Source of the DNA: an uncultured bacterium
GTDB lineage: Bacteria; Cyanobacteriota; Vampirovibrionia; Gastranaerophilales; Gastranaerophilaceae
DNA: 64,000 nt
NCBI GenBank assembly: GCA_902797985.1
Contig: CADBUZ010000001.1
Span: 522-64,521 of the forward strand
Reading direction: 5' to 3'
The notes beneath the pieces are model-generated. The model made no database searches. It saw only the letters and a program-made list of their open reading frames with translations, and was not told the origin of the DNA. The position numbers and the translations under genes were made by a program. Shown piece after piece: positions 14,254 to 19,820 of the stretch. How positions within the stretch are numbered: the stretch's first letter is position 1; each line of letters begins with the position of its first letter.

Positions 14254-17178
14254 ATGGATCCATTATTTTTGCGGAAAATAAGAATAGACCGACAAGGCAT
14301 GGGGATAAAAAAAGACAACCCCGAACACCTTCAACAAAATAGGCAAAATACGGAAAATGCAGCCCCTACTCAAAATGAGGCTGATATTCAACAACCTGCG
14401 AAACAAGATGCAACGCAGAATATTCGTCCTGAACAACAAGTTAAGCCTCAAGATGAACATAAGCCAACGAACTTAAAAAATCAGTCTGAACAGTTAATGA
14501 AAGAAATGAGAGATGAAGTTCTCACTCCAAAACAGCTAAAAATGAATTATTTAGCAAGTATGGAACGCTCCGGATATGTAAAAAAGATAATGAACCTTCC
14601 CAGAACACTGCCGGAACTTCTTATTCAACTACAAAATCCTGCAATGGCAAAAGATATTCAAAATGTAATGATGCAGGCTATTCCACAACCTGACACACAA
14701 AGAACTGATAAAAATAAATCTACAGACAAAACTGACTCTGACGGGAAAAACCAACAAAGAGGAGAATCTGATTCTGATAACAAACAAGTACAAAAAAACA
14801 TTAATGGGTTTAATGAAGTTTTGGAAAAAGAAACAGCACGAAAACAAGCAATTCTTGAAAGATACAATATAGGAAATAAACAAGAACAACCACCAAAACA
14901 AATAACAAACCCTTCTCAAAACATTCAAGAAGATGAAAGTATCCCTAATAACATTTTAAAAGGAACTGTTGAAGTTGTTGAAGATGGAACAGAAGAAACA
15001 CAACAAAATCAACAATCGAATAAAAATACACTACCAGAGGGGAAACAAAACGACATAAAACAACAGGTAACACCTCAACCACAAGCTGAGAACAAACAGC
15101 CTGTTGATAATCGTCCACAGGTAACACCTCAACCGCAAGCTGAGAACAAACAACCTGTCGATAATCGTCCGCAGGTAACACCTCAACCGCAAGGTGAGAA
15201 CAAACAACCTGTCGATAATCGTCCACAGGTAACACCTCAACCGCAAGGTGAGAGCAAACAACCTGTTGATAATCGTCCGCAGGTGAACCCTCAACCGCAA
15301 GCTGAGAGCAAACAACCTGTTGATAACCGTCCGCAGGTGAACCCTCAACCACAAGCTGAGAACAAACAACCTATTGATAACCGTCCGCAGGTAAATCCTC
15401 AACCTCAAGTTGAAAACAGACAACCTGTTGATAACCGTCCGCAGGTAACACCTCAACCGCAAGTTGAGAACAAACAACCTGTCGATAACCGTCCGCAGGT
15501 AAATCCTCAACCTCAAGCTGAGAATAAACAACCTATTGATAACCGTCCGCAGGTAAATCCTCAACCACAAGTTGAGAACAGACAACCTGTTGATAATCGT
15601 CCGCAGGTGAACCCTCAACCGCAAGTTGAGAACAAACAACCTGTTGATAATCGTCCGCATGTGAACCCTCAACCGCAAGTTGAAAACAAACAACCTATTG
15701 ATAATCGTCCGCAGGTGAACCCTCAACCGCAAGCTGAGAACAAACAACCTGTTGATAATCATCCGCAGGTGAACCCTCAACCGCAAGTTGAAAACAGGCA
15801 ACCTGTCGATAACCGTCCGCAGGTAACACCTCAACCGCAAGCTGAAAACAAACAACCTGTCGATAACCGTCCGCAGGTGAACCCTCAGCCGCAAGCTGAG
15901 AACAAACAACCTGTTGATAATCGTCCACTGGTAACACCTCAACCACAAGCTGAGAACAAACAACCTGTTGATAATCGTCCGCAAGTAACACCTCAACCGC
16001 AAGTTGAGAACAGACAACCTGTTGATAACCGTCCGCAAGTAACACCTCAACCGCAAGTTGAGAACAGACAACCTGTTGATAACCGTCCGCAAGTAACACC
16101 TCAACCGCAAGTTGAGAACAAACAACCTATTGACAATCGTCCACAATTGAATAATCATCCGAGAACAGATAACCATTCTAATAATAAACCTATAAATACA
16201 CACCCACACCACGTAAACCCAAAAGATTTTCGTCCGGAAAACTTTAACAACAGAATCGCCTATGAAATGAACAGAGCATCACTGCAACCACTGATGCCTA
16301 ACAGAATGCCTATTTTAAACAACCCTCCGCAAGATCCAAGATTTATGAATAATCAACTATTAAACAATGATCTAAAGGCACACGAACACAGACACAGACC
16401 GGAAATGCATGAACCACCGCCACCTCCAAAAGCAGAAAATAAAGAATCTGAAGCAATAGCAAACTTATATGCAAATCTTTCAATGAATGACATGCAAAAT
16501 CCTACCTTATCTCAAATGCAACAAAGACTATCTGACGATGCAGTGGAACTTTTATTTAGAGGCCTTATAAATCTTAATGAACTGTCTGAAACAATAAAAC
16601 ACAACGGACAAGATGCAAGGTCAAAACTGATATTAGCAATGGCAAATGCATCTAAACAAGGGATTGATAATTCTCAATTAACAAGCACAATGAAGCTTGT
16701 AACTGAGAGCATGGCTGCAAAAGAAAATGATCCTTCATCAATTTTGAAAAATATAATTATGCTGTATCTTCCTTGGTACCCGCTTCAAGAAGGAGTAGGT
16801 TTTAATCTGTCTATTGAAACCATGCCTAATAGTTCAGATTTTTCATCCCTGTTAAAAGTTTATATACAAACAAGAAACTATGGAAATGTGAATGGTTCGA
16901 TGGTTCTATTATCAAGCAACAACGTTGATATGAATATCCAATGTAATGATGTCTTTCCAAAAGATGATTTACTGGACAGAATGCAAGATGTTACAAAAAA
17001 CCATTCTATTCAATCCAATATTACTGTAGAAGAATATTTACAACAAAACAATGATGTCAGAAACCAACAAGCAAAAGTGAATCTATCATCAACATATGAA
17101 CTAAACCCATTCTTACTGCTGATGGCTCACTCTTTCATAAAAAATACAATCATAATAGATAGCGGCGCAAACGCATAA
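14254..17178 (+). CDS. Large protein with twenty 18-aa Pro/Gln repeats
   Basis: 974 residues. The N-terminal 270 are polar, Gln/Asn/Lys-rich. A central array (271-630) has twenty 18-residue repeats of the type QVTPQPQAENKQPVDNRP, likely an extended linker. Residues about 730-974 are a folded domain, including LPWYPLQEGVGFNLSIE and LKVYIQTRNYGNVNGSMVLL. That domain weakly recalls the FliK C-terminal (Flg_hook) pattern, but no flagellar genes are nearby. No signal peptide. The ATG at 14254 lies 6 nt after AATAAT, so a leaderless start is possible; an ATG at 14299 is an alternative. Function unknown. Confidence 0.7.
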   Translation: MDPLFLRKIRIDRQGMGIKKDNPEHLQQNRQNTENAAPTQNEADIQQPAKQDATQNIRPEQQVKPQDEHKPTNLKNQSEQLMKEMRDEVLTPKQLKMNYLASMERSGYVKKIMNLPRTLPELLIQLQNPAMAKDIQNVMMQAIPQPDTQRTDKNKSTDKTDSDGKNQQRGESDSDNKQVQKNINGFNEVLEKETARKQAILERYNIGNKQEQPPKQITNPSQNIQEDESIPNNILKGTVEVVEDGTEETQQNQQSNKNTLPEGKQNDIKQQVTPQPQAENKQPVDNRPQVTPQPQAENKQPVDNRPQVTPQPQGENKQPVDNRPQVTPQPQGESKQPVDNRPQVNPQPQAESKQPVDNRPQVNPQPQAENKQPIDNRPQVNPQPQVENRQPVDNRPQVTPQPQVENKQPVDNRPQVNPQPQAENKQPIDNRPQVNPQPQVENRQPVDNRPQVNPQPQVENKQPVDNRPHVNPQPQVENKQPIDNRPQVNPQPQAENKQPVDNHPQVNPQPQVENRQPVDNRPQVTPQPQAENKQPVDNRPQVNPQPQAENKQPVDNRPLVTPQPQAENKQPVDNRPQVTPQPQVENRQPVDNRPQVTPQPQVENRQPVDNRPQVTPQPQVENKQPIDNRPQLNNHPRTDNHSNNKPINTHPHHVNPKDFRPENFNNRIAYEMNRASLQPLMPNRMPILNNPPQDPRFMNNQLLNNDLKAHEHRHRPEMHEPPPPPKAENKESEAIANLYANLSMNDMQNPTLSQMQQRLSDDAVELLFRGLINLNELSETIKHNGQDARSKLILAMANASKQGIDNSQLTSTMKLVTESMAAKENDPSSILKNIIMLYLPWYPLQEGVGFNLSIETMPNSSDFSSLLKVYIQTRNYGNVNGSMVLLSSNNVDMNIQCNDVFPKDDLLDRMQDVTKNHSIQSNITVEEYLQQNNDVRNQQAKVNLSSTYELNPFLLLMAHSFIKNTIIIDSGANA
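15064..16143 (+). repeat. 20 x 54-bp in-frame tandem repeat
   Basis: Exactly 1080 bp, i.e. twenty uninterrupted 54-bp units encoding the Pro/Gln-rich 18-mers. Variation between units is concentrated at three codons: Thr/Asn at position 3, Ala/Val/Gly at position 8 and Val/Ile at position 14. Blocks of near-identical units indicate expansion by slippage or unequal recombination. Confidence 0.95.
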
Positions 17179-17180
17179 AT

Positions 17181-17210
17181 AAACGGTTCCAATTTTAATT
17201 GGAACCGTTT
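17181..17210. terminator. Bidirectional terminator
   Basis: A perfect 14-bp inverted repeat (17181-17194 with 17197-17210) lies between convergent genes ending at 17178 and 17238. A/T-rich flanks on both sides allow it to work in both directions. Confidence 0.8.
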
Positions 17211-17237
17211 ATTATTATATAATTTTAATACTTAGAA

Positions 17238-17561
17238 TTAGTTATCCCAAATACTGCTTGATCTTGCCCATGCATCATCATCACCATCAATACCTGAGCC
17301 AGTTCCTACACCTGTATCAAACGGATCAGTTGTACCACCAGATGCTGCTTGCATATTTCTCTTTTTTATCTCAACCACCTTCATTTCCGGTTTAACGTAT
17401 GCTTTTTTAACCATAGCCTTACCTTGAGATGCCATAGCATCTTGTGCTGATTCTAATTTAGATGCGCCATCTTTTATTGATACAGTTACTGCTTTTTTAG
17501 CTTCTGGAGCTACCATACTCTTTGCTGCACTACCAATCATTTTTATTGCTTCTAATTTCAT
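17238..17561 (-). CDS. Leader-peptide-like small protein, paralogue 2
   Basis: 107 residues. A helical N-terminus is followed by a block shared almost exactly with the next gene (AQDAMASQGKAMVKK, 39-53), then YVKPEMK (55-61), then AASGGTTD (72-79). The C-terminal 30 residues are rich in Gly/Asp/Ser/Thr and end SSIWDN. A conserved Y-x-x-P motif, a conserved distance to an ASG site and a variable Gly/Asp tail resemble ribosomal peptide precursors or secreted substrates. This is inference only. AAAAGGAGGAAATATA before the ATG is an excellent ribosome-binding site, suggesting high expression. It lies downstream of its paralogue and the TpsB transporter. Confidence 0.6.
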   Translation of the reverse strand: MKLEAIKMIGSAAKSMVAPEAKKAVTVSIKDGASKLESAQDAMASQGKAMVKKAYVKPEMKVVEIKKRNMQAASGGTTDPFDTGVGTGSGIDGDDDAWARSSSIWDN

Positions 17562-17665
17562 TATATTTCCTCCTTTTGAAATTACATCTACATCTAGTTT
17601 AATGATTCTAAAAATATTATTTGTTATTTAATAAATCATGTCTTTACATTTTGTTACAAACATTT

Positions 17666-18007
17666 TTACTCCCAAGAAAACCCATTTGAAGAGCTCGGGA
17701 AGATATCATCATTGACAGTAGTGCTTCCACTATAATTAGTACCGTCATCAACAATATCAGTAGTACCTCGAGGACCTGAAGCGACTTCCAAACCATTTTT
17801 ATCAAGTTCTTCAAATTTCACTTCTGGCTTAACATAAGGTTTTTTAACCATAGCTTTACCTTGTGATGCCATTGCATCTTGTGCAGTAGCTAAAGCTTTT
17901 TCACCATTTTTAAACTCAATTTCCCCAACTTTTTCAGTGGTTTTTGGATTTATTTTTTTTAATATTACATTTGTTATATTTTTTGCTGTTATAGCATCTG
18001 TTTTCAT
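17666..18007 (-). CDS. Leader-peptide-like small protein, paralogue 1
   Basis: 113 residues, paralogous to the gene at 17238-17561. It shares AQDAMASQGKAMVKK (43-57), YVKPEVK (58-64), and ASG followed by GTTD (76-84). Tyr-to-Ser spacing is 19 residues in both. The N-terminal 40 and C-terminal 30 residues differ, so selection seems to hold the middle and the ASG/GTTD junction. The tail is Ser/Asp/Thr-rich and ends GFSWE. AAAGGAGG lies upstream of the ATG. It begins 40 nt after the transporter stop, and a TATAAT at 18047-18052 may give it its own promoter. Function unknown; a TpsB substrate or modified-peptide precursor are the leading ideas. Confidence 0.6.
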   Translation of the reverse strand: MKTDAITAKNITNVILKKINPKTTEKVGEIEFKNGEKALATAQDAMASQGKAMVKKPYVKPEVKFEELDKNGLEVASGPRGTTDIVDDGTNYSGSTTVNDDIFPSSSNGFSWE

Positions 18008-18046
18008 ATATTAGCCTCCTTTGAAAACATTTTATTTATTAGTAAT

Positions 18047-18052
18047 ATTATA
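18047..18052 (-). promoter_or_regulatory. -10 element before the small-protein pair
   Basis: TATAAT on the minus strand overlaps the stop codon of the transporter gene and lies about 40 nt before the first small-protein start. It would allow the two small proteins to be made in excess of the transporter. No clear -35. Confidence 0.4.
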
Positions 18053-19820
18053 ATTGTTCACTATGATTTTTCTTTGGTATTAAGTTATCCAATTCAGAAT
18101 TCAAACCAAAGTAGAATCTGGCTGAGTTTTCACCATAGTATTTTCTACCCAAAGGAATACCAACCCCGAACTGTAATGACATCCAATCAGTAATACTGAT
18201 ATATGAACCGAATCCAACACTGTGTAAGAAGTTTTGCGGATAATCATAGATATGACTATGCTCAGAAACCCAACCAAAATCATAGAATGCGGCTAATCTT
18301 AACTTGTCATCAATAAATTTAAGCTTGTTTGGTAATATACGTCTTAAACCTGGGATAGGAGTTCTAAACTCAACAGTACCAGTAACACCATAATCACCAA
18401 TCAACTCAGCAGGTTGATAACCTCTTAATGTATAAGGTCCCCCTATTTGCATTTGTTCTGCAGTGTACAATCTGTTAGGTGAATACTGACCGTTAACTCT
18501 TAAGATACCCAATGTTCTACCAAACAATCTTTGGACACGAGTAACTCCGGCAATAAACTTAAAGAATGTTCCTTGAGGGCCTTTACCAGCGGCTTTTGAA
18601 CCACCAGGTAAACCTACATCAAAACCTAAAGTTCCAATCCAACGACCATATTTATCGTCTGTTATACCATGGAAACCTGATCTTATTACATATAATTTAT
18701 AATCTGATAAAGTTGTATTTAAAGCATTTGATCTTGTTGAAGCATTTACAAAATCAATACCTGTGTATGCAACTAAGCTTGTTTTTGCAGTTTCTATCAA
18801 AGGATGGGATATTCTAATTGCCATGCTTTGAGCTTTACCTTTAACATTTAAAAACTTATATGGTCCGCCAAGGTTGATATTAGAATTTGAGAAATCAAAT
18901 GACAATCTTGTACCATAAGGACTGATTGGCACAGAATAACCTGCTAAAATACCTGTTGAACGACGAGCCAAAATAGCTCCACCATATATTTTGTCACCCA
19001 TACCGGTAACATTATCTAATCCCAGCAAGAATGAAGCTCTTTGTTCCCCTGTATATTTTCTGCCATAATCATCCCATGCAAAATCAAATTTCAATGGAAA
19101 TCTGTCTTTTACATCAAGTTTTAAAAGTGTATCATCACCTTCTTTTGATACAACTGATTGAGCTTCTATATAATCTTCTTCATTTATTTCTCTTAAGGCA
19201 CCTTGTAGTGCTTTAGCATTAAATACATCCCCTTCTCTTATACCGTTTTTACCCATAACAATATTTTTTAAATACCATTTACGAGCCCAACGATTCCCTT
19301 CTATAGAAATTGAATTAACTTTACTTTCTATAATACAAAGAGTAACTACCCCATTTTTAATATTTTGAGATGGAATAAAAGCATAACTTGTTAAAAAGCC
19401 TTTTGCCTGATAATATTTTGTAATTCTCTTTGTTAACTTAACTAAATCTTCAAAATAAATATCTTGTCCGATAATATCTTCAGCTAAAGCTTTCAAAGAA
19501 GCATCTTTAACTTTGGTATTACCTTCAAAAACAATATCATTCACTTTAAAATGAGGGTTATAGATAACCCCATCTTTAAAGAAATCTTTTTCAGCTTCCA
19601 TAATATATGTATCATCAATAAAACTATCAGTCTTATCGATAGGCTGCGCGATTTCTTTAGAACGTTCAAGTTCCAAAAGCTGATTACGGTTCATCTGATT
19701 ATATACACCGGCACCGTCACCATTAATCGGAGCTTCAGCACTTGCAGTCAATGGCAATGCTAATATAAATGCCGCTATTAATACTACTAATCTATTTATT
19801 TTCATTTCTATCTTTCCCAT
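18048..19820 (-). CDS. Outer-membrane TpsB/ShlB-FhaC-type transporter (Omp85 superfamily)
   Basis: 590 residues. A signal peptide (KINRLVVLIAAFILALPLTASA, cut near residue 28) is followed by a linker. POTRA-like domains come next (about 75-190: FKVNDIVFEGNTKVKDASL, then GVVTLCIIESKVNSISIEG), then a beta-barrel (about 230-590). The barrel carries GGPYTLRGYQPAELIGD, the RGY tip motif of the TpsB/Omp85 inward loop. Such proteins export a partner across the outer membrane or insert barrel proteins. No large TpsA exoprotein is adjacent; instead two small paralogous proteins follow directly. An alternative start is Met6, and TATAGT 5 nt before Met1 would fit a leaderless message. Confidence 0.9.
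   Translation of the reverse strand: MGKIEMKINRLVVLIAAFILALPLTASAEAPINGDGAGVYNQMNRNQLLELERSKEIAQPIDKTDSFIDDTYIMEAEKDFFKDGVIYNPHFKVNDIVFEGNTKVKDASLKALAEDIIGQDIYFEDLVKLTKRITKYYQAKGFLTSYAFIPSQNIKNGVVTLCIIESKVNSISIEGNRWARKWYLKNIVMGKNGIREGDVFNAKALQGALREINEEDYIEAQSVVSKEGDDTLLKLDVKDRFPLKFDFAWDDYGRKYTGEQRASFLLGLDNVTGMGDKIYGGAILARRSTGILAGYSVPISPYGTRLSFDFSNSNINLGGPYKFLNVKGKAQSMAIRISHPLIETAKTSLVAYTGIDFVNASTRSNALNTTLSDYKLYVIRSGFHGITDDKYGRWIGTLGFDVGLPGGSKAAGKGPQGTFFKFIAGVTRVQRLFGRTLGILRVNGQYSPNRLYTAEQMQIGGPYTLRGYQPAELIGDYGVTGTVEFRTPIPGLRRILPNKLKFIDDKLRLAAFYDFGWVSEHSHIYDYPQNFLHSVGFGSYISITDWMSLQFGVGIPLGRKYYGENSARFYFGLNSELDNLIPKKNHSEQL

Follow-up and report, generated by a model that had tools for sequence, protein, structure and literature searches.

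The small proteins A and B, encoded directly behind a TpsB gene, are by their sequences members of a new, lineage-restricted family whose genes lie beside two-partner secretion genes in two sister genera. Secretion of this type across the outer membrane normally has two parts. We tentatively favor the reading that the family could be a lineage-specific third, accessory component of a split type Vb system, serving the secretion or display of TpsA. Gastranaerophilales are common in the gut and rumen, and our literature search found no published description of two-partner secretion in this group, with one review mentioning both terms. With their very strong ribosome-binding sites, the two small genes should show readily by proteomics, and they offer a target for studying surface assembly in these bacteria.

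The TpsB gene and its two small neighbors

The window, i.e., the whole 64,000-nucleotide stretch that was analyzed, belongs to a genome of 1.86 Mb (97.7% complete); the genomes compared were drafts in many contigs. The features are collected in Table 1. The initial annotation had placed two small same-strand genes with very strong ribosome-binding sites behind TpsB, and this arrangement was confirmed, including the near-perfect Shine–Dalgarno sites of the two paralogues.

Table 1. Coordinates of the features in the window.
Feature	Position	Strand	Description
TpsB	18048..19820	-	590 aa; Sec-type signal peptide, POTRA_2, ShlB barrel, LRGY motif; CdiB/FhaC-like
Small protein A	17666..18007	-	113 aa; start 40 nt after the TpsB stop; ORF and Shine–Dalgarno; family member
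Small protein B	17238..17561	-	107 aa; ORF and Shine–Dalgarno; paralogue of A
Shine–Dalgarno of A	18015..18022	-	AAAGGAGG
Shine–Dalgarno of B	17569..17576	-	AAAGGAGG
Leader of A	17777..18007	-	77 aa, net charge +3; ends E-V-A-S; contains AQDAMASQGKAMVKK, YVKPE
Tail of A	17669..17776	-	36 aa, net charge -5: GPRGTTDIVDDGTNYSGSTTVNDDIFPSSSNGFSWE
Leader of B	17340..17561	-	74 aa, net charge +8; ends Q-A-A-S
Tail of B	17241..17339	-	33 aa, net charge -6: GGTTDPFDTGVGTGSGIDGDDDAWARSSSIWDN
Upstream element of B	17598..17658	-	TGTAACAAAATGTAA, then AACAAATAATATTTTTAG; common to several small genes of other genomes (upstream regions aligned)
Hairpin	17178..17213	.	separates small B from the convergent 974-aa gene; read from sequence

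Both Pfam domains of the window TpsB were over the cut-off (ShlB, E = 2.2e-25; POTRA_2, E = 4.5e-19), and the most hydrophobic 12-mer of its N-terminus reached 3.4 by simple hydropathy. The closest solved structures, found by phmmer against the PDB, were CdiB (6wim, 4.6e-18) and FhaC (4qky, 6.7e-6). Signal peptide, POTRA domain, and barrel together identify this sequence as that of a two-partner secretion (type Vb) outer-membrane transporter. Its orthologues within the genus of the window (g1) were 76–82% identical. The AlphaFold model (pLDDT 39), built on too shallow an alignment, was too poor for use.

Small gene A is probably co-transcribed with TpsB, and a gap of 104 nt separates A from B. 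The AAAGGAGG element sits 7 nt before the ATG of both genes, which is an optimal spacing. About 519 kb of the window genome contained 402 ORFs with 100 aa or more, A and B themselves included; GGAGG occurred in only 18 of them and AAAGGAGG in 2, and the sites are therefore rightly called very strong. Exceptionally strong Shine–Dalgarno sites were a feature of most family members.

The conserved element upstream of B is a possible promoter of its own, as suggested by its recurrence ahead of small genes elsewhere. The exact TGTAACAAAnTGTAA occurred once in 519 kb of the window genome. A looser two-part pattern was counted no more often than in a Markov background, and a common promoter marking a regulon was rejected on that ground. 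Sequences similar to the conserved element (TGTAACAAAnTGTAA with [AT]A[GA]CAAA..ATTTTTA) precede other lineage-specific genes, again in numbers not above the Markov background. On the other side of B, the convergent gene (14254–17178, + strand) encodes a protein of 974 aa that has no Pfam match and contains about 20 copies of an 18-residue repeat (NPQPQVENKQPVDNRPQV) in tandem. The hairpin between the two genes was not reported by the terminator scan; from its sequence and position, it is probably a terminator common to both.

A and B, the only family copies in the window genome, matched each other with E = 2e-17 and 46% identity (36/74 in the leader and 11/33 in the tail). The finer points of the initial annotation also held: the exact AQDAMASQGKAMVKK is present in both proteins and is followed by YVKPE, in each protein the Ser of ASG stands 19 residues after the Tyr (Y55–S74 and Y58–S77), and the GTTD motif follows as ASGGTTD in one paralogue and ASGPRGTTD in the other.

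A leader–tail family in two sister genera

The small proteins had no significant or credible match in Pfam, NCBIfam, PHROGs, or the PDB. Family members were found in two sister genera only. In g1, 7 of the 8 genomes carried one or two copies, and the eighth (82% complete) had neither a small gene nor this TpsB. In the sister genus g56, members were found in 7 genomes, including a minimal 73-aa form (L143). The g1 profile, run against 84,980 species genomes, returned only g1-like members. The named genomes with relatives were Candidatus Gastranaerophilales NALB_7823_10 and the uncultured isolates RUG770, RUG12841, RUG11040, and SRR11784292_bin.17; the carriers would thus be non-photosynthetic gut or rumen cyanobacteria, where "rumen" is taken from the RUG names. 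Searches at the class level (335 genomes) and the family level (276) gave no further full-length members, only weak N-terminal resemblances. A first contig scan with a single small protein as the query gave no match, and none was found in viral contigs and plasmids. The family may resemble small proteins of Bacteroidota with the pattern YxKP...LLAGSG...FDxDW, which were taken as a lead only.

All 17 members consist of a basic leader and an acidic tail. The leader has 63–79 residues (73–79 in 15 of the members, 63 in two) and a net charge of +2 to +10. It carries a [QE][DA]AxAxQGKAMV-like motif and usually YxKP, and it ends in A-x-S (V-A-S in A). The Gly-rich tail spans 10–47 residues with a net charge of -1 to -8, and its tip is usually aromatic/acidic (e.g., SIWDN, FSWE, LWD, and GGWY). 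The AlphaFold model of a small protein (pLDDT 54) showed, at low confidence, a helix over residues 3–51 and an unstructured tail; the basic leader is probably helical.

It had been expected that the ASG site would be fixed and the remainder variable. The Ser was indeed invariant (17/17), lying 15–17 residues after KP where KP exists, and the Ala was nearly so, but the Gly was usual rather than constant. The [YF]xKP motif was found in 15 of the 17 members and lost in G161b and G069; the YxKP-type motif thus proved frequent but not universal. Within g1, mean pairwise identity was 45% for the leaders (54% over the last 45 leader residues) and 30% for the tails, barely above the 24% of shuffled tails. 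The G004 paralogues, however, were identical at 35/40 tail positions versus 39/76 leader positions. The tails are therefore not always the variable part, and they can apparently be conserved or homogenized.

The N-terminal module was also found at the start of an unrelated 323-aa protein in another genus (genome G295, L195, 697–1668, - strand; LDALSVQGSAMIKKPYF), with E = 1.4e-21 for a profile that included this sequence and E = 3.6e-9 for one without it. The module may therefore be a general, modular recognition element. In lineage-specific proteins of other genera (L195, L201, L055, and L220), [QY][GN][KR]A/T-type motifs occur in an N-terminal extension; L201 resembles a phosphoesterase to which an N-terminus has been added. 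Bulk counts of these N-terminal motifs gave no clear enrichment, and a family-wide motif (FKG, YNKA) was dropped for this reason.

This anatomy raises the main rival to an accessory role, ranked before coincidence and direct export through TpsB: the small proteins could be precursors of secreted peptides, with the leader cut after A-x-S and the acidic tail as the mature, possibly modified product, while the two-partner secretion genes merely share a surface or competition neighborhood. A near-constant leader length beside tails of widely differing length, the invariant Ser, and the flip of charge from leader to tail all speak for it, and LPP and lasso precursors typically combine a YxxP leader motif with an N-terminus that is conserved and a C-terminus that varies (PMC13381572). 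The fixed leader and the conserved Ser are compatible with a cleaved precursor, the cleavage itself being putative.

The enzymes did not support the modified-peptide locus that the initial annotation had offered as an alternative. The lasso B2 protease (PF13471) was found in none of 16 genomes. A PqqD-like RRE (PF05402), a search by which divergent RREs can be missed, gave no credible match in g1; one genome each of g56 and g25 held a match above the cut-off. No maturase adjoined the small genes. The only C39-like domain of the window genome (G000), which also occurs in relatives, belongs to an HlyB-like transporter and by eye is missing its Cys and His; five g56 genomes with longer small genes (G161, G193, G202, G144, and G215) had no C39 match. 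As far as it could be tested, the lack of B2, the lack of a credible PqqD match in the genus, and the members without YxxP argue against a lasso-type RiPP. The small proteins do not fit a C39-processed double-glycine peptide, as the invariant residue is Ser, the second Gly varies, and no catalytic C39 was found in the genus. Considering also that YxKP was lost in two members and that in G004 the leaders differ far more than the tails, we place the precursor reading on the unlikely side.

Two other loci came up in these searches. The g56 match to the PqqD-like RRE (L170; G144 C11, 12683–13281) has a weaker second match in a neighboring 502-aa frame, and the region is a possible RiPP cluster. 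On contig C5 of the window genome (L132/L136), the HlyB-like ABC transporter, whose C39-like domain apparently has no Cys/His, adjoins a TolC-like gene; the two are a possible type I secretion system.

Linkage to two-partner secretion genes

In all 7 g1 genomes that have this TpsB, a small gene follows it directly. The initial annotation had suggested that the small proteins may be substrates that leave through TpsB, and this immediate adjacency in the whole genus is what speaks for direct export. Substrates of two-partner secretion are made as preproteins for Sec export and carry a TPS domain, by which they bind the POTRA domains (PMC5422565); the small proteins have neither the Sec signal nor this domain. 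Their most hydrophobic N-terminal 12-mer scored 0.4–1.4 in 17/17 members by simple hydropathy, without a dedicated predictor, as compared with 3.4 for TpsB; no Sec signal was seen on this scale. The TPS (haemagglutination activity) domain PF05860 gave no match in the 17 members. The small proteins are therefore ruled out as ordinary TpsB substrates. The presence of a regular TpsA in the window genome and the position of the g56 small gene away from TpsB further weaken direct export, which we regard as highly improbable. A new class of two-partner secretion, in which small leader–tail proteins would be cleaved after the invariant Ser and their tails exported, or used to decorate the surface together with TpsA, by a Sec-independent route new to gut cyanobacteria, also appears very unlikely.

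The adjacency to TpsB held throughout g1 but not in g56. There, 6 of the 7 genomes carrying the small gene have it directly upstream of TpsA, on the same strand. The large protein encoded 3' of it has a Sec signal peptide and a TPS-type domain (INWGxLNVGxGQxLNF...), which identifies it as TpsA. This position supports the link to two-partner secretion in a way that had not been foreseen.

The TpsA partner had been described as absent, which is correct for the surroundings of TpsB but not for the genome. The window genome has two TpsA genes: a 3289-aa frame, divergent with a second TpsB on C8 (L126), which makes a second complete pair, and a 1595-aa orphan on C25 (L115), whose orthologues across g1 range from 679 to 2764 aa. 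We assigned the partner by elimination and synteny. Because the other TpsA and TpsB are neighbors on C8, the window TpsB and the C25 orphan are left as the remaining pair. The g1 orphan lies beside OmpH-like, Maf, and S1-domain genes (named by reading the sequences), and in g56 the same slot holds the orthologue of the window TpsB (64–66% identity). The slot flanks were 52, 60, and 66% identical between the genera, in the same order and orientation. The shared slot suggests that the C25 orphan is the cognate partner of the window TpsB.

One slot is thus filled by TpsA in g1 and by TpsB in g56, so the pair was separated oppositely in the two genera. The simplest history would start from an ancestral TpsA–TpsB cluster that split in these two directions; in each genus, the small gene now accompanies whichever partner is not in the slot. 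Several other genera have their TpsB orthologues next to TpsA. In g25 and other genera, TpsB orthologues come with no such small gene, so two-partner secretion works without it.

The linkage is supported by only two independent arrangements, and it has exceptions. The second G007 copy (L074) adjoins an unrelated gene, away from any two-partner secretion gene, and the G099 copy follows an MFS gene like its relatives but without TpsA. In g56, the MFS gene upstream of the small gene is an equally constant neighbor. These points, together with the leader module on another protein, would also fit an accidental link, in which an unrelated cytosolic small protein (e.g., an adaptor with an acidic-aromatic tail) landed by TpsB in one genus and by TpsA in another. 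By our own rough estimate, a gene placed at random among about 1,800 would come to lie next to one of about four two-partner secretion genes with a probability near 0.4%, and the small gene stands beside the split pair in both genera; we hold coincidence to be distinctly unlikely.

The accessory role is supported by the placement beside TpsB in 7/7 g1 genomes and beside TpsA in 6/7 g56 genomes, the slot swap, the 40-nt spacing, the strong Shine–Dalgarno sites, and the precedents of BcpO and HMW1C. The small number of arrangements, TpsB genes elsewhere without a small gene, the G007 and G099 exceptions, the equally constant MFS gene, and the module on the 323-aa protein count against it, as does the lack of a predicted signal peptide that would place the small protein where TpsA and TpsB meet. 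If the accessory role is correct, the small proteins would be made in large amounts in the cytosol, and the leader, with its QDAxAxQGKAMV and YxKP motifs, would be the part that the cell recognizes. Contact with a partner would fall to the tail, which is acidic, Gly-rich, and aromatic-acidic at its end, and which is perhaps released behind the invariant Ser of A-x-S. We infer these steps, i.e., leader recognition, cleavage after Ser, and contact with TpsA, with TpsB, or with an exporter of the inner membrane; the small proteins would then act with a TpsA encoded elsewhere in the genome, as BcpO or HMW1C do beside other TpsA/TpsB pairs.

Comparison with known systems

The window TpsB resembles CdiB and FhaC in having POTRA_2 and ShlB domains and in matching their PDB chains. 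It differs from them in having small genes downstream and its TpsA gene at another site of the genome. The small proteins share with lasso/LPP precursors a YxxPx[L/V/I-like] motif in the leader, a conserved N-terminus, and a variable C-terminus (PMC13381572); unlike in those, their leader is longer, their YxKP motif is not universal, and neither an RRE nor a maturase was found nearby.

HMW1C is the third partner of HMW1A/HMW1B, a glycosyltransferase acting on TpsA (PMC3983070). The small genes resemble it as third genes accompanying a two-partner secretion pair, whereas their proteins are small and without a recognizable catalytic domain.

BcpO, the product of the third gene in Burkholderia-type CDI (bcpAIOB) systems (PMC3415462), is likened to the small proteins by description and gene linkage. 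The best-studied BcpO is, unlike them, a lipoprotein, and its gene lies 5' of bcpB in one operon with toxin and immunity genes. Some BcpO alleles (57–172 aa) have no signal sequence and vary from one to another (PMC3415462). The small proteins have no hydrophobic signal. In both cases, a small gene in a TpsA/TpsB locus adjoins the transporter gene (PMC3415462). A family of small proteins linked to TpsA/TpsB would add to the few third partners of type Vb systems.
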